Shown in pieces: positions 4,816 to 54,189 of a stretch of DNA of 64,000 nucleotides. This DNA comes from Actinomycetota bacterium (GTDB lineage Bacteria > Actinomycetota > Thermoleophilia > Gaiellales > Gaiellaceae). The notes beneath the pieces are model-generated. The model was not told where the DNA came from. It saw only the letters and a list, made by a program, of their open reading frames with translations, and did not search any database. The DNA lies in NCBI GenBank assembly GCA_004366385.1, contig ML178782.1:62001-126000 (forward strand), read 5' to 3'. How positions within the stretch are numbered: the stretch's first letter is position 1; each line of letters starts with the position of its first letter. Position numbers and translations under genes: made by a program.

Positions 4816-5126
4816 GTGAGCTCCTCGGTGACGAGCGTCCGCTCGCCGATCCGCTCGATGCGCATGATCACGCGCTCGTCGGGGTCGGGGCAGGCGACGA
4901 GACTGTCGCGCTCGAGCCAGTCCTCGCCGGGGAGCCGTCGCATCTTCGCCGGGATGAGCGGGAGCACGGCCTGCAGCGCGAACAGGCAGAAGTGCCGTCC
5001 CTCGGGGATGCGGACTCGGCTCGACTCCGTCACCTCGAACCAGTCGCCGACCTCGAGCCCGCAGACCGAGCGGCCCTCGATCCGCTCCACGGTCACGCGC
5101 ACGTCGTAGAGGCGCATCTCCGTCAC
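4812..5126 (-). CDS. TIGR04076 family protein
   Basis: A 104-residue cytoplasmic protein of unknown function. VRVTVERIEGRSVCGLEVGD, FEVTESSRVRIPEGRHFCLF and the ending with paired hydrophobic strands fit the TIGR04076 family of small actinobacterial and archaeal proteins, in which the conserved Cys residues (VCGLEVGD, HFCLFAL, LVACPDPDE) may bind metal. It starts with GTG at 5126 or ATG at 5117. Its stop codon TAG touches the start region of the downstream F420-type oxidoreductase, so the two are probably translated together. Confidence 0.7.
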   Translation of the reverse strand: MTEMRLYDVRVTVERIEGRSVCGLEVGDWFEVTESSRVRIPEGRHFCLFALQAVLPLIPAKMRRLPGEDWLERDSLVACPDPDERVIMRIERIGERTLVTEELT

Positions 5127-5182
5127 GGGCGCGAGCGTACAAGCGGCGATGAGTTGCGGTCGAGCGCGCGGTCTATGCGTCG

Positions 5183-5479
5183 ATGGGCGTCGAAGGGCCG
5201 CAATCCGTGGTGTTCTCGATCCGCGGCCCCATCGCCCGCGCCGACCTCGACGGACTCACCGGCCGCGTCTGCGCGCTCCTCCGCGAGGCGGGCGCCGGAG
5301 GCGTGGCCGTGTGTGACGTCGCCGGCGTGGAGCCGGACGCGGTGACGGTGGACGCGCTCTGCCGCCTCCAGCTGGGCGCGCACCGGGCCGGCTGCTGCGT
5401 GCGGCTCCGGAACGCGTCGGCGGACCTCGTCGAGCTCGTGGAGCTCATGGGTCTCGCAGACGCTCTCTGCGACCGATGA
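5183..5479 (+). CDS. STAS-domain protein (MlaB-like)
   Basis: A 98-residue single STAS domain. The strand-helix order and the closing segment NASADLVELVELMGLADALC match MlaB-type STAS proteins. The position where SpoIIAA-type antagonists carry a phosphorylatable Ser is TVDALCRLQLGAH, which lacks the DSA motif, so it is probably not a classical anti-anti-sigma factor. It begins with ATG at 5183 and ends 52 bases before the VOC gene, so the two may be cotranscribed. Confidence 0.65.
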   Translation: MGVEGPQSVVFSIRGPIARADLDGLTGRVCALLREAGAGGVAVCDVAGVEPDAVTVDALCRLQLGAHRAGCCVRLRNASADLVELVELMGLADALCDR

Positions 5480-5485
5480 GATCGG

Positions 5486-5503
5486 CGGTCTGACACGGTC
5501 TGA
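5486..5503 (+). repeat. direct repeat CGGTCTGA x2 before the VOC gene
   Basis: Two identical copies of CGGTCTGA start at 5486 and 5496, a 10-bp period placing them on one face of the helix, 29 bases before the start of the VOC gene. They may be a small operator or chance. Confidence 0.3.
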
Positions 5504-5531
5504 AGTGAGACAAGCGACAAGGAGGCTGGAG

Positions 5532-5963
5532 ATGGCACGCATGCTCTTCCCGAACCTGGCCGTGCAGGATCTCGACCGCTCGGTCGCGTTCTTCACCGAG
5601 CTCGGGTTCGAGTTCGACCCACGCTTCACGGACGACACGGCGACCGCGATGGTCGTGAACGAACAGGCGACCGTGATGCTCCTCACCCGCGAGAAGTTCG
5701 CGGAGTTCACGACGAGGGAGCTCGCCGACCCGGCCACGCAGACCGAGGCGATCATCGCGCTCTCCGCCGACAGCCGCGAGGACGTCGACGCGTTCGCGGA
5801 CAAGGCGCTCGCGTCCGGCGGGTCGCCCGCGAAGGAGCCGATGGACCTCGGCTTCATGTACGGGCGGAGCTTCCACGACCCCGACGGGCACCACTGGGAG
5901 ATCTTCTGGATGGACCCCGCGGCGCTCGAGCGGATGTCGGCCGAGGCGGACGTGGCGGCGTAG
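5532..5963 (+). CDS. VOC family protein (glyoxalase/bleomycin resistance fold)
   Basis: A 143-residue vicinal-oxygen-chelate protein. FPNLAVQDLDRSVAFFTELG is the typical first beta-alpha unit, and SFHDPDGHHWEIFWMDP is the typical metal-site end of the fold (His and Glu ligands). ATG at 5532 is preceded by AAGGAGG with an 8-base spacer; the in-frame GTG at 5505 is less likely. The gene converges on the sigma-factor gene with five bases between stops. Such proteins bind small hydrophobic ligands or detoxify electrophiles; the substrate is unknown. Confidence 0.85.
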   Translation: MARMLFPNLAVQDLDRSVAFFTELGFEFDPRFTDDTATAMVVNEQATVMLLTREKFAEFTTRELADPATQTEAIIALSADSREDVDAFADKALASGGSPAKEPMDLGFMYGRSFHDPDGHHWEIFWMDPAALERMSAEADVAA

Positions 5964-5968
5964 GCGGG

Positions 5969-6958
5969 CTACGCGTCGAGCTCGAGCGGCAGCCCGAACA
6001 GCGGGAACAGGCGCTGGACGTCGAGGAAGAAGGTGAAGTCGACGATCTTCCCGTCCTCGATCTCGAGCACCTGGAGCGCCCACGGCTCATACCCGGCGCC
6101 CGTCTCGCTCGGCTTGTACTGGCCGAACGCGGGCGCGCCGTTCGCGCTCTCGACCGAGACAACCCGGGACCCGCGGCAGCCGCCGCCGGGGCCGATCCAC
6201 CACGTGAGGATGTCGTCGCGCCCGGCGAGCCACATGTCGAACGGCGGCATCGACTGCGTCGCATCCTCGTGGATCAGCTCGGTGAGCGCGTCCATGTCGT
6301 ACGCCTCGAAGGCCGCGACGTAGCGCGCGAGCAGCTCCTCGTCGGCCGCGTCGACCGAGGGCGACGTCGTCGCGGGCTCGATCCTCCGCTCCTCGAGCGT
6401 CGCCCGCGCCCGCTGGAGCGCGCTGTTCACCGAGGCGACGCTCGTCTCGAGCAGCTCCGCGACCTCGGACGCCTGCCAGCGCAGCACCTCGCAGAGGACG
6501 AGCACGGCGCGCTGCCGCGGCGGCAGGTGCTGGAGCGCGGCGACGAACGCGAGCCGCACCGTCTCGCGCGCCTCGGTGACCGCCGCGGGGTCGCCGTCCG
6601 GCACGACGCGCCCGTCGGGCATCGGCTCGAGCCACGGGATCTCCGGCGTGCGCAGGTTCTCCGCGACAGGCTCGCTCGCCGGGCCGAGGTCGATCGGCCG
6701 CGCGCGCCGCTTCCGGCCCTCGAGCATGTCGAGGCACACGTTCGTCGCGATCCGGTAGAGCCAGGAGCGAAGCGTGGAGCGTCCCTCGAAGCGGTCGAAC
6801 GAGCGCCAGGCGCGGATGAACGTCTCCTGCACCGCGTCCTCGGCGTCGACCGAGCCGAGCATGCGGTAGCAGTAGGCGGTCAGCTCGATCCGGTGCTGCT
6901 CGAGCTGCTGCTCGACGGGAGCGGACGCGGCGGAGGCTGGGCTCTGCACCCGAGCCAT
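5969..6958 (-). CDS. ECF-type RNA polymerase sigma factor with C-terminal SnoaL-like domain (SigG-like)
   Basis: A 329-residue sigma-70-family factor. Region 2 reads YCYRMLGSVDAEDAVQETFIR followed by STLRSWLYRIATNVCLD. Region 4 reads LPPRQRAVLVLCEVLRWQAS and SVASVNSALQRARATL. From about residue 200 to the end a SnoaL/NTF2-like domain follows (LARYVAAFEAYDMDALTELI). This sigma2-sigma4-SnoaL order is that of SigG-like and related ECF groups, where the extra domain replaces a separate anti-sigma factor. ATG at 6958 (MARVQSP) is preferred over the in-frame start at 6982. It is divergent from the PAP2 gene with 68 bases between. Confidence 0.88.
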   Translation of the reverse strand: MARVQSPASAASAPVEQQLEQHRIELTAYCYRMLGSVDAEDAVQETFIRAWRSFDRFEGRSTLRSWLYRIATNVCLDMLEGRKRRARPIDLGPASEPVAENLRTPEIPWLEPMPDGRVVPDGDPAAVTEARETVRLAFVAALQHLPPRQRAVLVLCEVLRWQASEVAELLETSVASVNSALQRARATLEERRIEPATTSPSVDAADEELLARYVAAFEAYDMDALTELIHEDATQSMPPFDMWLAGRDDILTWWIGPGGGCRGSRVVSVESANGAPAFGQYKPSETGAGYEPWALQVLEIEDGKIVDFTFFLDVQRLFPLFGLPLELDA

Positions 6959-47105: not shown

Positions 47106-49885
47106 CGACGACTCCCACCGCTCCCGCCGTCGAGCCGGCCTCGCGCGACGGCCGACGGAAGCAAGCCGTCGTCCACGTGCCGTCACTCGGAATGCTGCTC
47201 GCGCGCGCCCTCGTGCTCGCGTACGCCGGGGCCGCCGTCTTCGTGGTCGACCGCGTCTTCGACCTGCTCATGGACTACTGGCTCCTCGACAGCCTCGGCT
47301 TCGCCGGCGTCTTCTGGACGAACTTCTGGACGAGCCTCGCGCTGTTCGCCTTCGGGTTCGTCGTCTTCGCAGCGGCCGTCGCAGCGCCGCTGCTCGTCTC
47401 CGGGGCGACGCAGCGCGTGCGCCGCCGCCGGACGCTCCAGGTCGCTGCGCTCGTCGGCCTCGCAGCCGGCTACCTGCTCGCGCGGCGCTTCCACGAGTTC
47501 CTGCTCCTCGTTCACGGCAAGTCGTTCGGCGAGCGGGACCCCGTCTTCGGGCTGGACGCGAGCTTCTACGTCTTCGACCTGCCCGCCTACCGGACGCTGG
47601 CCACGGTCGCCCTGCTCGCCGGCGGCGTGCTCCTCGTCTCGTCGCTCGTCCACGAGCTGCTGCGCCGCGACCGCGGCCGCGACGGACTGCTGCAGGCCCT
47701 GAGCGCGCCCACCTCGCTCGTCGCGCTCGGCGTGCTGGCAGTTGCGGGCGCCGCCGAGCTCTGGCTCGCACGCTATGGCCTGCTGGCGCGCGACAACGGC
47801 GACGAGCGGCGCGCCGAGATCTTCAGCGGGCCGAACTACATCGACGTGAACGGCTCGCTCTCGACGAAGAACCTGCTCGCGGTCGGAGCGGTCGCACTCC
47901 TCGTCGGTGTCGGCGCCGTCGTCTACCGGCTCGTCCGCCTCGCGGCCGCCGGCGGCCCGCCGCACGCCCGCGCCCTGCTCCTCGCCGCCGCGCCGGCGGT
48001 GGCGGGATACCTCGCCTTCTGGGGCCTCGTCGAGGTGCGCGACCAGACCCACGTCACGCCCAACGAGCCGGTCAACCAGCTTCCGTACATCCAGCACCAC
48101 CTCGACGCGACGAACGCCGCCTGGACGATGAACCAGGTCGAGGTCGTCCCCTTCGTCCCCAAGTCGGCCGACGCGCCGAGGCCGAGCGTCAACCGGCTCC
48201 TCGCGCATCCGACGTTCACCAACGCGCCCCTCTGGCCGGGCTACGTGTCCTCGTTCGAGCGGGTGGTCGACCCCGACTACGTGGACCGGATCGTCGCCGC
48301 GCGCGGGGACACGACGATCTACGGGCCGTCGCTGGACATGTTCCGCCAGCAGCAGAAGCTCCGCCCCTACTACGACTTCATGGACGTGGACACGACGCGC
48401 TACCGCGTCGACGGCGAGCCGGTGATGGTGGCAAGCGCGGTGCGCGAGCTTCCGCTCATCGAGCCGCAGCCATGGCTCGCCTGGTGGGGTCAGCGCTTCG
48501 TCATCTTCACCCACGGGCACGGCCTCGTCGCCGCCCCGACGAGCGGGATCTCGCCGCAGGGAGAGCCGACGTACGCGTCCGGCGCGCTCCCTCACCAGGC
48601 GCAAGCGGAGGCGCTCGAGCTCACCCAGCCCGGCGTGTACTACGGCGAGGGCTCGAGGACGATGGCGTTCAGCAACCTCGACGCGATCCGCGAGCACGAC
48701 TACCCCACGCCGCAGGATCGCGCGGAGACGTCCTTCCCGGACGACGTCGACGCCGGCGTCCGCATCGACAGCCTCCTCAAGCGCATCGTCTTCGGCTGGA
48801 GGAGCGGCTCGCTCCTGGACATCGTCTTCAGCGACCTCGTCACCGACTCGAGCCGCGTGCACTACGCGCGCTCACCGCTCGAGCGCGTGGCGAAGGTCGC
48901 ACCCTTCCTCTACCTGGACAGCAACCCCTTCGCCGTCGCCGCCGATGGGCGGATCGTGTGGATGGTCAACGGGCTCACGACGAGCGACCAGTACCCGTAC
49001 AGCGCCTTCGCGGAGCTCGGGGACAAGGCCGACCGGCGCACCCCGATCGCGCGCCCGACCCGCGTCGTGAACTACGCGCGGGACGCCGTGAAGATCACCG
49101 TCGACGCCTTCACAGGCGAGGTGGGGCTCTACGCGATCGCGGACGAGCCGATCACGCGCACGTGGGCCGCGATCTACCCGGACCTCTTCCGGCAGGCCGA
49201 CGCGATGCCGCCCGAGGTGCGGGAGCAGCTCCAGTACCCGGTTCAGCTCATGCACTCGATCTTCGACGACCTCTACATCTACTTCCACCAGACCGACCCG
49301 CTGACGTTCTTCAGCTGGGAGGACGTCTTCGACGACGCCGACGAGGTGAAAGGCGACCTCCTGGCCGAGGGCACGTCGGTGAGCTTCTCGATCGAGCCCT
49401 ACTACTGGATCGCGGAGACGGGCAAGGATCTGCCGGGATCGAGCGATCGCCACCAGTTCGCGCTCTCCGCGGTGTTCACCCCCGAGGGCGCCCGGAACCT
49501 GCGCGCGATCGCGACCGCCTACATGGACGGCCCCGACTACGGGAAGCTCTCGATCCTCCAGGTTCCGAAGGGCCGCTTCTTCCCCGGGCCCGAGCAGGCG
49601 GACGCGGCGATCGACCAGGACGCGTTCATCTCGCAGGAGATCAGCCTCTGGAACCGGCTCGGCCTGAACGTCATCCGCGGCCACACGACGCCGCTCGTCG
49701 TCGAGGGCGAGGTCTTCTACGTCGAGCCGCTCTTCATCAAGTCCGCGCAGAACCCGGTTCCGCAGCTGAAGCGCGTGGTCGTCGTCTTCCGCGGGAAGGC
49801 GGCGATGGGCGCCACGCTCGAGGAGGCCCTGCGGGCCGCTGTCGACGGCGACGAGGAACAGCCCTCGGCCGCGCGGACGCCCTGA
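47102..49885 (+). CDS. UPF0182 family membrane protein
   Basis: A 927-residue protein. The N-terminal third has about seven helices (LVLAYAGAAVFVVDRVFDLL, FWTNFWTSLALFAFGFVVFA, LLLAAAPAVAGYLAFWGLVE). The rest is a large extracytoplasmic domain with VRDQTHVTPNEPVNQLPYIQ, QPGVYYGEGSRTMAFSNLD, RIVWMVNGLTTSDQYPYSAF and YFHQTDPLTFFSWEDVFDD, all UPF0182 hallmarks. Length is about that of the family. ATG at 47102. Actinobacterial members are conserved, but their role is not settled. Confidence 0.93.
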   Translation: MTTTPTAPAVEPASRDGRRKQAVVHVPSLGMLLARALVLAYAGAAVFVVDRVFDLLMDYWLLDSLGFAGVFWTNFWTSLALFAFGFVVFAAAVAAPLLVSGATQRVRRRRTLQVAALVGLAAGYLLARRFHEFLLLVHGKSFGERDPVFGLDASFYVFDLPAYRTLATVALLAGGVLLVSSLVHELLRRDRGRDGLLQALSAPTSLVALGVLAVAGAAELWLARYGLLARDNGDERRAEIFSGPNYIDVNGSLSTKNLLAVGAVALLVGVGAVVYRLVRLAAAGGPPHARALLLAAAPAVAGYLAFWGLVEVRDQTHVTPNEPVNQLPYIQHHLDATNAAWTMNQVEVVPFVPKSADAPRPSVNRLLAHPTFTNAPLWPGYVSSFERVVDPDYVDRIVAARGDTTIYGPSLDMFRQQQKLRPYYDFMDVDTTRYRVDGEPVMVASAVRELPLIEPQPWLAWWGQRFVIFTHGHGLVAAPTSGISPQGEPTYASGALPHQAQAEALELTQPGVYYGEGSRTMAFSNLDAIREHDYPTPQDRAETSFPDDVDAGVRIDSLLKRIVFGWRSGSLLDIVFSDLVTDSSRVHYARSPLERVAKVAPFLYLDSNPFAVAADGRIVWMVNGLTTSDQYPYSAFAELGDKADRRTPIARPTRVVNYARDAVKITVDAFTGEVGLYAIADEPITRTWAAIYPDLFRQADAMPPEVREQLQYPVQLMHSIFDDLYIYFHQTDPLTFFSWEDVFDDADEVKGDLLAEGTSVSFSIEPYYWIAETGKDLPGSSDRHQFALSAVFTPEGARNLRAIATAYMDGPDYGKLSILQVPKGRFFPGPEQADAAIDQDAFISQEISLWNRLGLNVIRGHTTPLVVEGEVFYVEPLFIKSAQNPVPQLKRVVVVFRGKAAMGATLEEALRAAVDGDEEQPSAARTP

Positions 49886-49910
49886 TCGAACGGGGGGCGC
49901 ATTGCGGGAG

Positions 49911-49983
49911 TGGGCGGTAGAGGGCTTGAACCTCTGACCTCCTGCGTGTAAAGCAGGCGCTCTACCAACTGAGCTAACCGCCC
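49911..49983 (-). tRNA. tRNA-Val (anticodon TAC)
   Basis: The complement folds as a cloverleaf: acceptor GGGCGGT/ACCGCCC, D arm TAGCTCAGTTGGTAGAGC, anticodon stem CCTGC/GCAGG around a loop with TAC, and T arm with GGTTCAAG. The discriminator base is A and CCA is not encoded. A TATCCT box lies 12 bases upstream (49995-50000, complement) as a possible -10. Confidence 0.95.
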
Positions 49984-50016
49984 GGACGGCCCACAGGATA
50001 CGGCTCGCGGCTTAAC

Positions 50017-50045
50017 TTGCTCTGCGAACACACGTTCGCTAGAGT
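50017..50045 (+). promoter_or_regulatory. sigma-70 promoter with LexA/SOS box
   Basis: -35 TTGCTC at 50017-50022 and -10 TAGAGT at 50040-50045 with a 17-bp spacer. The spacer contains CGAACACACGTTCG at 50025-50038, a perfect match to the Gram-positive/actinobacterial LexA box CGAAC-RNRY-GTTYG. A repressor bound there would cover the whole core promoter. The AAA+ gene begins 36 bases after the -10. Confidence 0.85.
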
Positions 50046-50080
50046 CGCGCGCTCCGCCCGCGGCCCTGGAGGGAAGAGAG

Positions 50081-51415
50081 ATGGAGCGACTCGTCCGCAT
50101 GTCCGTCGACGAGCTGGAGGAGCTGGTGGCCGGCGAGGAGGGGGTGTACGAGCTCGACGAGGCCTCGTACCCGCCCTGCCTGAGACCGCGGACGGGGCCG
50201 ATCCGACTCAAGCGTCTCGCCCGCGGCGAGCTCAAGGTCGAGGTCGACAAGCGCGACGGGCGGATCGGAAGCTTCGAGCTCGACGTGCTCTTCACGAACG
50301 GCGTCAGCGTCTTCGGCGAGCCGTACTGGTTCGGGACGTTCCTGCGCGGCCCGGTCGCCGAGGCGTTCGGGATCGAGATCGAGCCGCACCCGACGCCTGC
50401 GCCCCGTTCAGCGCAGGCGATGGTCGAGGATCTGATGCCGGAAGCCCCGCGCTCGAGTGAGCCGGAGCCGCGCCGCCAGCCGAAGCGCCGGAGGGCTGTC
50501 CAGCCCCGCCCCGCCGAGCTCGCCCGTGCCCTCGCGAAGCGCGTCTCCGGGCAGGACGCCGCCGTGAGCCGAATCGCCGAGCTCGTCTCCGGCCAGCTCT
50601 CGAAGGTCGCGCCCGCGCGGCCGGAGAGCATGCTCCTGATCGGCCCGCACGGCTCCGGGAAGACGCGCGCGGTCGAGGCGCTCCCGGAGGTGCTCGCCGA
50701 AGCCGGCCACGCGGGCGCGCACGTCTTCCGGGTCGACTGCGGGCTCGCCGGCGGGTTCGACGCGAGCCGGCTCCTCGGCTCCGCGCCCGGGTACGTCGGC
50801 TACACCGAGTCGCCTCCGCTGCTCGAGGCGCTCGAGACCCGCAGCTGCATCCTGCTGCTCGACGAGATCGAGAAGGCGCACGACCGCGCCCATGAGGTGC
50901 TCCTCGGGCTGATCGCCGAGGGCCGCCTGGTCGCGCCCGACGGGCGGTCGGTCGAGGCGCCGGGGCTGGTCGTCGCGATGACGTCCGCCGACGGCGCCGA
51001 GGACCTCGAGCATGCGCTCGCGGAGGTGCCGCCGGGCTCGCGCGAGGAGGTCGACGCCTGCCGCACCCACCTCTTCCGGCAGGGCTGGCCCGAGGAGCTG
51101 ATCGGGCGCGTCGGCTCCTTCGTCGTCTTCGACCCGCCGCCGGAGACGTCGCTGCACGAGGCGGCCGAGCGCGCGATCCGGGAGCTCGCGGGCGAGTACG
51201 GGCTCGAGGTCGAGACGCTCCCGCCGGTGCTCGCGGACGTGGTGACCGACCTCGCAGATGCGAACGAGACAGGGCTGCGCGCGGTCACGCACGCGGCGCG
51301 CGACCTGCTCATGCAGGCGTTCGCGGACGCGGCGCGCGACGGGCTCGAAGGCCCGGTCGCGATCGACCCCGGCCCACCGCCGAAGGTGGAGGCGCTCCAG
51401 AAGAGCTTGCTCTAG
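50081..51415 (+). CDS. stand-alone ClpB-D2-like AAA+ ATPase with unknown N-terminal domain
   Basis: A 444-residue protein in three parts. Residues 1-105 are an unrecognised mixed alpha/beta domain (PRTGPIRLKRLARGELKVEV, VFGEPYWFGTFLRGPVAEAF). A basic Pro-rich linker follows (about 110-145), then an AAA_2 ATPase. LLIGPHGSGKTRAVEALPEV is Walker A, CILLLDEIEKAHDRAHEVLL Walker B, APGYVGYTESPPLLEALETR matches the ClpB-type pore region, and the equivalent of the NRID Arg finger is IGRVGSFVVFDP. The C-terminal small domain follows. Its promoter carries an SOS box. ATG at 50081 follows GGAGGGAAGAGAG. The sequence does not show whether it is an unfoldase, a protease partner or a DNA-linked ATPase. Confidence 0.82.
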   Translation: MERLVRMSVDELEELVAGEEGVYELDEASYPPCLRPRTGPIRLKRLARGELKVEVDKRDGRIGSFELDVLFTNGVSVFGEPYWFGTFLRGPVAEAFGIEIEPHPTPAPRSAQAMVEDLMPEAPRSSEPEPRRQPKRRRAVQPRPAELARALAKRVSGQDAAVSRIAELVSGQLSKVAPARPESMLLIGPHGSGKTRAVEALPEVLAEAGHAGAHVFRVDCGLAGGFDASRLLGSAPGYVGYTESPPLLEALETRSCILLLDEIEKAHDRAHEVLLGLIAEGRLVAPDGRSVEAPGLVVAMTSADGAEDLEHALAEVPPGSREEVDACRTHLFRQGWPEELIGRVGSFVVFDPPPETSLHEAAERAIRELAGEYGLEVETLPPVLADVVTDLADANETGLRAVTHAARDLLMQAFADAARDGLEGPVAIDPGPPPKVEALQKSLL

Positions 51416-51424
51416 GCTCGCGCC

Positions 51425-52543
51425 GTGCTCGACCGGAGGGAGGTCGCGGAGCTCGTCTCGCAGCTCGTCTCGATCGAGTCCGTGAACCCCACGCTCGTCC
51501 CAGGCGGCGCGGGCGAGGCCGAGGTCGGACGCTTCGTCGCGGACTGGCTCGAGCGGCACGGGCTCGAGACCGAGTACGAGGAGGTCGAGCCGGGACGGGC
51601 GAACGTCGTCGGGCGCGTGCGCGGGTCGGGTCGCGGGCGCACGCTGCTCCTGAACGCGCACCTGGACACGGTCGGGCTCGGCGGCCCGGACGGCGGGACG
51701 ACGCCGCGCGTCGACGGCGACCGGCTCTACGGGCGCGGCTCGTACGACATGAAGAGCGGGCTCGCGGCGATCATGCTCGCCGCCGCCCGCGCCCGCGACC
51801 TGCGCCTCGCGGGCGACGTCGTCGTGACCGCGGTCTCCGACGAGGAGGATCGCTCGCTCGGCTCCGAGCGGATCGCGGCGACCGTGCAGGCGGACGCGGC
51901 ACTCGTCACCGAGCCCACGGGCATGCGGCTCGCGATCGCGCACCGCGGCTTCCTCTGGCTCGAGCTGGAGACGCAGGGCGTCGCGGCACACGGCTCGCGC
52001 TACGACCTCGGCGTGGACGCGATCGCGCGGATGGGGCACGTGCTCGTCGCGCTGGAGAAACTGGACGCGGAGCTGCGCGCGGACGAGCCGGGGCACCCGC
52101 TCCTCGGCTACGCATCGCTGCACGCGTCGCTGATCGAGGGCGGGACCGAGCTCTCGACCTACCCCGACCGCTGCGTGCTGAAGATCGAGCGACGAACGCT
52201 CCCCGGCGAGACGGTCGAGGCGGTCGAGGCGCAGATCCGCGCAGCAGCGCCGGAGGCGGAGGTGCGGACGCTGTTCGTGCGCGAGCCGCTGGAGACGCCG
52301 CGCGACGCCGAGATCGTCGAGCGGCTGCTTGCGAACACCCAGCCTCTGCTCGGCCACGCGCCGGAGGTCGTGGGCGTGCCGTACTGGACGGACGCGGCGC
52401 TCTTCTCCGCGGCCGGGATCCCGTCCGTCGTCTTCGGCGTCGGCGGCGAGGGCGCGCACGCGGAGCCGGAGTGGGTCGACCTCGGCGACGTCGAGCGTGT
52501 GGCGGAGATCGTGCTCGCGACGATCGCGGACTTCTGCAAGTGA
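51425..52543 (+). CDS. M20-family metallopeptidase (ArgE/DapE-like)
   Basis: A 372-residue zinc amidohydrolase. LLLNAHLDTVGLGGPDGGTT has the first zinc His and the catalytic Asp, GRGSYDMKSGLAAIMLAAAR the bridging Asp, and TAVSDEEDRSLGSERIAATV the Glu pair. HRGFLWLELETQGVAAHGSR belongs to the dimerisation domain and PYWTDAALFSAAGIPSVVFG to the last metal motif. GTG at 51425, nine bases after the SOS-box gene, so it is likely cotranscribed and DNA-damage inducible. A different M20 protein is at 40676. Confidence 0.9.
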   Translation: MLDRREVAELVSQLVSIESVNPTLVPGGAGEAEVGRFVADWLERHGLETEYEEVEPGRANVVGRVRGSGRGRTLLLNAHLDTVGLGGPDGGTTPRVDGDRLYGRGSYDMKSGLAAIMLAAARARDLRLAGDVVVTAVSDEEDRSLGSERIAATVQADAALVTEPTGMRLAIAHRGFLWLELETQGVAAHGSRYDLGVDAIARMGHVLVALEKLDAELRADEPGHPLLGYASLHASLIEGGTELSTYPDRCVLKIERRTLPGETVEAVEAQIRAAAPEAEVRTLFVREPLETPRDAEIVERLLANTQPLLGHAPEVVGVPYWTDAALFSAAGIPSVVFGVGGEGAHAEPEWVDLGDVERVAEIVLATIADFCK

Positions 52544-52574
52544 GGGCGAGGCCGGCCTCGCCCTCACTTGCAGA
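52533..52574. terminator. 42-bp perfect palindrome across the M20 stop codon
   Basis: Arms 52533-52553 and 52554-52574 are exact reverse complements (21 bp, no loop; CCGG at the centre). The stop TGA of the M20 gene lies within the left arm. It sits between convergent genes and can form the same hairpin on both strands, so it is a likely bidirectional terminator. Confidence 0.75.
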
Positions 52575-52580
52575 GCTCCG

Positions 52581-52957
52581 TCAGCGGGACTTCAAGCGCT
52601 CGACCTCGCGGTCGATGTCCGCCTCAGTGGTCGGCCGATCGAAGTAGTAGGCGCGAAGACCGGCGATCGTGACGAGAACGCCGCCGATCAGGGCGACCCA
52701 GACGATCCACGGATCCCAGTCCCCTGAGTACCTCGGCCTCGAGCTCAGGTGCTCGGGCCAGCCGCCGGCGGACTCGTACTGCGTGACGATCCAGACGGGC
52801 GTGAGGACGAGCAGCGAGAGCGCGTAGATCGTGAGATAGAGCTTGAACTTGCGGATGTGCTCCAGGTGTCGGATCGCGAACTTCCGGAGCGTCCCGACCT
52901 CCGGACGAACCTCGAGTCCGAGGATTCACTGATGCCCGGGTCGACGTGGCGAGACAT
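52581..52957 (-). pseudogene. 2TM-domain membrane protein with a single-base frameshift
   Basis: ATG at 52957 begins MSRHVDPGISESSDS. The correct sequence then moves into another frame: EVRPEVGTLRKFAIRHLEHI, FKLYLTIYALSLLVLTPVWI, WIVWVALIGGVLVTIAGLRA, YYFDRPTTEADIDREVERLK. The stop is at 52581. The whole interval is 377 bases, one short of 126 codons, and a stop blocks the second frame just upstream. The two-helix layout with a C-terminal charged helix is like 2TM-domain proteins. A base was lost near 52912-52920 in the genome or the read. Confidence 0.7.
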
Positions 52958-53007
52958 GCTCGAGCCTTGACGGGGCTCTAGGCAATGCCCCCACAGAGGA
53001 GGTTCAG

Positions 53008-53292
53008 ATGTTCACCTACGTCGGGCTCTTCAGGCTCACGCCGGTTGCGCGGGAGCAGATCGAGAAGACCCCTGAGTACTTCGAGAAGATCCACGAGATC
53101 GTCGAGGCCGAGGGCGGCACCGTCGAGCGCTTCCTCGCGATCATGGGCCCGTGGGAGTACTTCGGCATCTTCGAGTATCCCGATCTCGAGGCCGCGTTCC
53201 GCGTCCTCGGCAAGATCGCGAAGCTCGAGGTGTTCGAGACCGAGACGTTCCCGGCCGAGGACGTCAAGCTCTTCTGGAAGGCGCTCGTCTAG
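53008..53292 (+). CDS. GYD domain-containing protein
   Basis: A 94-residue protein. FTYVGLFRLTPVAREQIEKT, VEAEGGTVERFLAIMGPWEY and FGIFEYPDLEAAFRVLGKIA match the GYD fold, a dimeric alpha/beta barrel-like domain of unknown role. ATG at 53008 has GGAGG seven bases upstream. It is followed by a tRNA gene on the other strand. Confidence 0.85.
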   Translation: MFTYVGLFRLTPVAREQIEKTPEYFEKIHEIVEAEGGTVERFLAIMGPWEYFGIFEYPDLEAAFRVLGKIAKLEVFETETFPAEDVKLFWKALV

Positions 53293-53373
53293 CGTCGTCG
53301 GGTTCCAGCGGACGCAACGTGGGCCGCCTCCGGGCGGCTCACGCCGTCTTGGCGGGAACGGCACCACTGATGA

Positions 53374-53446
53374 TGCCCCCAACGGGATTCGAACCCGTGC
53401 TGCCACCTTGAAAGGGTGGTGACCTAGGCCGCTAGTCGATGGGGGC
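53374..53446 (-). tRNA. tRNA-Glu (anticodon TTC)
   Basis: The complement folds with acceptor GCCCCCA/TGGGGGC, anticodon stem CCACC/GGTGG around TTC, and a T arm GGGTTCGAATCCC. No CCA is encoded. TACACT, nine bases upstream (53456-53461, complement), may be the -10; the same hexamer precedes tRNA-Lys. Confidence 0.95.
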
Positions 53447-53491
53447 CCGGCTCGGAGTGTAGAGGGGGCGCACGGCGCTACTCTGAGCCGC

Positions 53492-54025
53492 ATGACTGCG
53501 ACGGCCACGCCCGCCCACGTCCTCGGTCGGCTCGCCGACGAGCGGCGCCTCCGCGTGCTCGCGGCGGTCGCGCTCGGCGAGACGTCCGTCCCGGAGATCG
53601 CGGAGCGCGCCGGGCTCAGCGGCGACGAGACCGCCCGGGCGCTGGCGCAGCTCATGGGCGCGGGCATCGTCACGCAGGAGCCGAGTGGCCTCGAGGTCGA
53701 CTTCCGCGCGTTCTCGGAGGCCGCGCGCGCCGCCTCCACCCCGCGCCGCCGGCCGTCGCTCGACGATGCCACGCCCGAACAGGCGGCGGTGCTCCGCAAC
53801 TTCGTCGACGAGCACGGCCGGATCACCGCGCTCCCCGCACGCGAGGCGAAACGACGGCTCGTGCTCGAGTACGTCGCCGCGCGGTTCGAGCCCGGCCGCG
53901 AGTACGACGAGAAGCAGGTGAACGGCGTGCTGCTCGAGCTGTTCGACGACCCGGCGTCGCTACGCCGCTTCCTCGTCGACGAACAGCTGCTCGAGCGCGA
54001 GGCGGGCATCTACCGCCGCAGGTAG
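53492..54025 (+). CDS. DUF2087 transcriptional regulator with ArsR-like N-terminus
   Basis: A 177-residue DNA-binding protein. Residues 1-70 are a winged helix (LADERRLRVLAAVALGETSV, IAERAGLSGDETARALAQLM). Residues 95-170 are DUF2087 (AVLRNFVDEHGRITALPARE, GREYDEKQVNGVLLELFDDP, LRRFLVDEQLLEREAGIYRR). Domain order is that of actinobacterial HTH-DUF2087 proteins. ATG at 53492. The operator is unknown. Confidence 0.8.
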   Translation: MTATATPAHVLGRLADERRLRVLAAVALGETSVPEIAERAGLSGDETARALAQLMGAGIVTQEPSGLEVDFRAFSEAARAASTPRRRPSLDDATPEQAAVLRNFVDEHGRITALPAREAKRRLVLEYVAARFEPGREYDEKQVNGVLLELFDDPASLRRFLVDEQLLEREAGIYRRR

Positions 54026-54043
54026 CCGCCTACACTGCCCGCG

Positions 54044-54116
54044 CGGGCCGGTAGCTCAGCTGGTAGAGCAGGGGACTTTTAATCCCAAGGTCGCAGGTTC
54101 GATCCCTGCCCGGCCC
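54044..54116 (+). tRNA. tRNA-Lys (anticodon TTT)
   Basis: Cloverleaf with acceptor GGGCCGG/CCGGCCC, D arm TAGCTCAGCTGGTAGAGC, anticodon stem GGGAC with TTT in the loop, and T arm GCAGGTTCGATCCCTGC. The discriminator is A. TACACT at 54030-54035 is a likely -10. Confidence 0.95.
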
Positions 54117-54189
54117 ACTCGCGAAGCGAGTTGTCCCGGCGAAGCCGGGACCAGTGGAGGGGGTCTGGGGGAACCGGGAGGTTCCCCCA
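54116..54189 (+). terminator. three successive hairpins after tRNA-Lys
   Basis: Stems at 54116-54130 (6 bp, GAA loop), 54132-54150 (8 bp, GAA loop) and 54164-54189 (11 bp, GGGA loop). There is no U-tract. Together they may stop transcription or protect the tRNA 3' end. Confidence 0.5.

Follow-up and report, generated by a model that had tools for sequence, protein, structure and literature searches.

A predicted LexA operator in front of a single-ring Clp/Hsp100-type ATPase gene

To leave the SOS state, bacteria must remove damage-induced proteins, a task that general proteases perform in well-studied species. Single-ring Clp unfoldases of the ClpX type consist of one AAA+ ring and a small N-domain, and LysM proteins of the YneA type are SOS-induced division inhibitors. 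The LexA protein of Streptomyces venezuelae binds the sequence tCGAAC-N4-GNNCGa (PMC9380542). A palindrome of the same type, in the same promoter position as described in the accessible part of that study (PMC9380542), precedes an AAA+ ATPase gene in the 64-kb stretch of DNA analyzed here (the window). We consider LexA control of this gene very likely because of the operator sequence, the company of a box in front of lexA itself, and the recurrence of the box before the only relative of the ATPase found. A literature search that covered few subscription papers returned no account of an ATPase of such build under SOS control.

The LexA box and its counterparts in related genomes

The LexA box (SOS box) CGAACACACGTTCG was located by exact sequence match at positions 50025–50038 of the forward strand, 42 bp upstream of the ATPase start. 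It lies within the 17-bp spacer between TTGCTC (50017–50022) and TAGAGT (50040–50045), which form a putative forward-strand promoter (50017–50045) overlapping the box. On re-reading, the sequence of the box, its coordinates, and its fit to CGAAC-RNRY-GTTYG were exactly as an earlier note on this DNA had claimed, as were the coordinates and spacing of the flanking hexamers. Counted by hand, TTGCTC matches the sigma-70 consensus TTGACA at 3/6 positions and TAGAGT matches TATAAT at 4/6, and a promoter scan of 49800–52700 returned nothing above its threshold. The promoter is therefore plausible by position, not by strength, and only the spacing remains of the "consensus-spaced promoter" described before. 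A GGAGG motif is found 8 bases upstream of the start ATG at 50081.

The window box is part of a larger set. In its own genome (2.73 Mb, 63 contigs, 97% complete), CGAACN4GTTCG occurs nine times and the reversed control pattern not at all. Seven of the nine sites, the window box included, carry an RNRY core, and the other six of these lie before or touch the starts of SOS-type genes. One box precedes the start of lexA (L006; Pfam LexA_DNA_bind, 2.3e-25); the host thus encodes LexA under the same operator type. This locus, part of which reads N, also gave a partial Peptidase_S24 match (2.6e-12). Single boxes are found at uvrA (UvrA_inter, 1.5e-38), at dinB (IMS, 4.7e-51), and at the gene for an exonuclease-GIY-YIG protein (RNase_T, 5.4e-32), and two at the gene for a LysM mini-protein on contig 30 (LysM, 5.9e-12). 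The latter two are 10 bp apart, and the likely start codon falls within the nearer one. dinB and its box reside on contig 35 (58628), just outside the window and 3.4 kb ahead of its first base. recA is not among the genes identified at boxes that match this exact pattern.

Across the genus, family, and order, 41 genomes with the own one among them contain the pattern 438 times and the control pattern 110 times, and the forward count exceeds the control in 41/41. Since the control pattern is that frequent, about a quarter of such sites may have arisen by chance. We read 42 box groups, drawn from the 438 sites minus the nine of the own genome. For 29 groups the loci were chosen automatically, it seems by taking whichever site was listed first for a genome; the other 13 come from three genomes, in which sites were selected by their cores. 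Repeat sites were dropped. SOS or replication/division-type genes adjoined 27 of the 34 groups with an RNRY-type core on either strand and one of the eight groups without it (ssb); this tally relies on sequence motifs instead of Pfam, with a motif list drawn up after reading the loci, and is therefore descriptive and no test. The 27 comprise lexA (8), LysM mini-proteins (5), imuB/dinB (4), mraZ, sigma factor, dnaB, and SPL-like radical SAM genes (2 each), and exonuclease and ssb (1 each). A further two RNRY-type groups (L191, L252) are LysM genes by eye, and five are unnamed.

The box-bearing LysM mini-protein recurs in the order (L002/L250, L176, L177, L187, L191, L252, L257, L267), mostly with tandem boxes and with a single one at L176, and it resembles the YneA-type SOS division inhibitors. 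In relatives, genes assigned by motif to mraZ, a sigma factor, and dnaB also have LexA-type boxes before them (L178, L266, L181, L262, L184, L201), a hint that LexA may be tied to division and replication genes of the order. The order-wide set, with its tandem-box LysM mini-protein, mraZ, dnaB, and sigma factor, offers a testable map of the DNA-damage response.

The ATPase and its relative in another genus

The ATPase gene (50081–51415, forward strand) encodes 444 amino acids, arranged as an N-domain (about 1–105), a linker, and a Clp/ClpB-D2-type AAA module (about 146–420). Residues of about 146–372 correspond to the ClpB-D2-type module (PF07724, 8.2e-17; ClpB1 chain, 8.1e-25). Walker A (GPHGSGKT, 188–195), a GYVG pore loop (237–240), and Walker B (LLLDE, 258–262) are present, and R343 occupies the arginine-finger place. 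The sensor-1 Asn of ClpB is replaced by Ala 303, and the ATPase activity may therefore be low. A pattern scan of the AAA module for ClpP loops returned only LGL at 275, after Walker B, and no IGF-type loop. At the thresholds applied, searches of Pfam, NCBIfam, PADLOC, and PHROGs gave no match to the N-terminal 105 residues; the PHROGs and PADLOC matches cover the AAA part only, those of PADLOC being weak. AlphaFold predictions for the full-length protein and for the N-domain alone had mean pLDDT values of 39 and 45, too poor for use. Judged by its sequence, the protein is a single-ring Clp/Hsp100-type ATPase. Its previous description as "ClpB-D2-like" fits residues of about 146–372 and omits the separate N-terminal domain of about 105 residues.

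The only full-protein relative found is encoded on contig 37 of G069 (locus L135), a genome from another genus of the family. The BLASTP alignment begins at residue 21, covers most of the N-domain, and gives 29% over 391 columns; over residues 131–221 the figure is 46%. CGAACATCTGTTCG lies 47 bp before the ATG of L135, flanked by TTGCGC and TAGGGT, which stand 18 bp apart. In a footprint comparison of these two sequences, CGAACA and GTTCGCTAG are letter-for-letter identical in the window and L135 promoters. Divergent from L135 lies a comEA-type gene, whose product has SLBB and helix-hairpin-helix domains, instead of tRNA-Val. The box thus holds the same promoter position among different neighbors and therefore seems to travel with the ATPase rather than with the location. 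The earlier note had suggested looking for the site upstream of orthologues; it is present in 1/1 relative found, a small sample. This box, together with the box regulon of the own genome, supports the claim of LexA control made there.

A search with the promoter pattern, set to a spacer one base longer than that of the window site, which accordingly lies outside the pattern, matched the G069 site and five others. Three of the five have a radical-SAM or HhH-GPD gene downstream (Pfam for two; HhH-GPD below the cut-off), one has a response regulator by eye, and one has no nameable gene.

The L135 copy lacks 48 residues (222–227 and 237–278 in window numbering), including the pore loop and Walker B, and its ORF (4904–6187) runs in frame at the C-terminus into an AidB_N match at the contig end, through a fusion or an assembly error. 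Because of the lost residues and the AidB_N tail, we take this copy to be damaged or misassembled.

No relative beyond G069 was detected by a protein search of 101 family genomes, by an N-part search of 129 order genomes, or by searches of 349 class genomes, one with a two-row profile and one with the N-domain; these sets overlap, and each includes the own genome. In the profile search of the class, the two sequences scored 842 and 509 bits and the next best candidate 115 (four candidates scored per genome). G069 scores there by construction, its row being part of the profiles; it was first found in the family and order searches. An N-domain search of 396 genomes of a phylum draw (own genome included) found no relative. 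Searches of genome_contigs, plasmids, and viruses gave no full-length relative among the matches listed: the best-listed plasmid hits, the 46 loci from viruses, and the 80 retained from genome_contigs are AAA-part matches, nearly all starting at about residue 141, the exceptions among the viral loci being two from residue 91 and one from residue 128.

Weak N-domain matches from the order search were treated as chance after inspection of 6 of the 13 fetched loci (L042, L044, L048, L052, L053, and L054, out of L042–L054; E 0.0016–0.05 for the six). Visual inspection suggests a beta-lactamase-like frame for L044, a repeat-type one for L048, and a TruB-like one for L053; the others are short and unsupported. 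Further weak N-domain matches occurred in nine class genomes and five phylum genomes (E 2e-4 to 0.01).

Genomic setting and alternative explanations

Divergent from the ATPase gene lies tRNA-Val(tac) (49910–49983, reverse strand), the left edge of a presumed inserted block, and 3,390 bp from it tRNA-Glu(ttc) (53374–53446, reverse strand). The two tRNA genes are 2–48 bp apart in 3/4 genus relatives with a close tRNA-Val(tac) (G018, G067, G039), which have tRNA-Lys(ttt) beyond tRNA-Glu. In the window, the ATPase, M20, and GYD-domain genes lie between tRNA-Val and tRNA-Glu, and a DUF2087 gene lies in the 598 bp from tRNA-Glu to tRNA-Lys, so that two protein-gene blocks (3,390 and 598 bp) split the array (49910–54118). 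The simplest reading is that the gene block arrived by insertion into the tRNA array, and the ATPase gene probably came with the block now between tRNA-Val and tRNA-Glu. Against insertion, the fourth relative (G061) shows no tRNA-Glu within the 3 kb examined, the orientation differs in G018, and a repeat search identified no flanking repeat.

Such a setting would also suit an accessory or selfish gene (mobile-element, defense, or toxin-like) that has a real operator and uses LexA as an alarm, outside the repair programme. The very patchy distribution agrees with this explanation, a relative occurring outside the own genome in 1/348 class genomes and 0/395 genomes of the phylum draw, and so do the compactness of the tRNA array in most genus relatives, the condition of the L135 copy, and the weak AAA-core matches in PADLOC. 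However, the Pfam-tested neighbors are UPF0182, M20, GYD, and DUF2087, with no integrase, transposase, or known defense gene among them, and the GC content of the gene (0.74) fits that of the window (0.72). We regard such an alarm-driven role as rather unlikely, albeit worth keeping in mind.

The gene after the ATPase encodes an M20 (ArgE/DapE-like) metallohydrolase of 372 amino acids (51425–52543, forward strand), whose GTG start follows the ATPase stop by 9 bases. Its catalytic and dimerization domains are both present (PF01546, 9.5e-29; PF07687, 6.6e-17). A near-perfect hairpin (52527–52580; 27-nt arms, 93% complementary, −52.4 kcal/mol, z −7.2) overlaps the M20 stop. It has no T-run, and a scan for T-tailed terminators gave no hits, this hairpin included. 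The 9-base gap and the hairpin at the end of the pair make a two-gene transcript ending at this hairpin likely. The hairpin may serve as a transcript end on either strand.

This arrangement (same strand, short gap, common hairpin end) could indicate that the ATPase and M20 proteins act as one SOS-induced module, for example by unfolding substrates and then cleaving small acyl or peptidyl groups. In 15/40 relatives, M20 orthologues with E values of no more than 1e-60 were found, at 20 loci in all, and neither the ATPase nor the box was found at any of the 20 in the sequence available per locus, which was mostly 1.5 kb upstream, about 0.6–1.3 kb at L162, L164, and L165, and none at L159. Even in G069, the best M20 gene sits on another contig than L135, with both ATPase and box absent within 1.5 kb. 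A joint SOS function of the pair, for which the earlier note had predicted induction by DNA damage, thus finds no backing, and we consider such a module improbable. In this genome, M20 appears to be a passenger within the two-gene unit.

A chance palindrome without LexA binding is less probable still. In the window, CGAACRNRYGTTCG occurs once, which amounts to two strand hits for a palindrome; dinucleotide-preserving shuffles gave a mean of 0.05 strand hits, and 1/100 of them reached at least two. Support for the box is moderate when judged from the window alone. The weak hexamers also fit a chance origin, as do the two own-genome sites without an RNRY core (L007, L009), which look like chance, one lying inside a coding frame and the other beside an envelope-polysaccharide-type gene by eye. 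Against chance stand the RNRY core of the window box, its promoter position, the other boxes of the own genome, and the recurrence before L135.

Finally, the box also lies 42–55 bp upstream of the 5′ end of tRNA-Val in the 97-bp divergent spacer, but an operator mainly for this tRNA gene, parted from its former neighbor tRNA-Glu by the arrival of the block, is the least credible explanation, since box and promoter are laid out alike in L135 next to a comEA-type gene and CGAACN4GTTCG is absent from 13 other tRNA loci read, including four of tRNA-Val(tac).

Proposed function and relation to known systems

Taken as a whole, the explanation we favor, with modest confidence, is that of a LexA-controlled accessory single-ring Clp/Hsp100-type ATPase acting as a protein remodeler. 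LexA bound to the operator overlapping the promoter would block RNA polymerase, and RecA-driven LexA cleavage upon DNA damage would derepress the ATPase gene. The operator suggests both steps by established SOS biology, and the ATPase is probably switched on upon DNA damage. M20 would be co-transcribed as a passenger. Because the module is of the Clp type, the ATPase ring would be expected to thread proteins via its GYVG pore loop, with the N-domain selecting the client. In this way, the enzyme could dismantle or recycle either proteins located on damaged DNA or clients induced by the damage. It would remodel these instead of feeding ClpP, since the pattern scan revealed no IGF-type ClpP loop.

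A Clp-type ATPase under LexA would be a dedicated, damage-timed remodeler. More tentatively, and in our view less probably than not, the protein may be an undescribed SOS effector with a client-binding N-domain, made only upon damage and spread between related lineages together with its LexA promoter, which takes apart or clears particular proteins to end the SOS response. Under this bolder proposal, taken as one, its targets would be repair enzymes that have stalled, or else the LysM division inhibitor induced by damage.

The closest described systems each share part of these features. Compared with S. venezuelae, the window operator fronts a gene for which the accessible part of the published study (PMC9380542) yielded no counterpart, and binding by the host LexA is predicted. 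With the general layout of the ClpX type the ATPase shares the single-ring build with a small N-domain; it appears to differ in the ClpP loop, no IGF-type loop being seen by pattern, and its N-domain has no Pfam match. The likeness to the second ring of ClpB/Hsp104 (AAA-2) is an alignment over ATPase residues of about 146–369, with Walker A, Walker B, the GYVG pore loop, and the arginine finger in common. Whereas ClpB/Hsp104 has two AAA modules, the ATPase has one within its 444 amino acids, carries Ala rather than Asn at the sensor-1 position, and stays far from the NCBIfam ClpB equivalog cut-off (107.3 vs. 1232.1 bits). The counterpart of the YneA type, the LysM mini-protein, belongs to the box set of the own genome as a gene separate from the ATPase, of which its product is a conceivable client.
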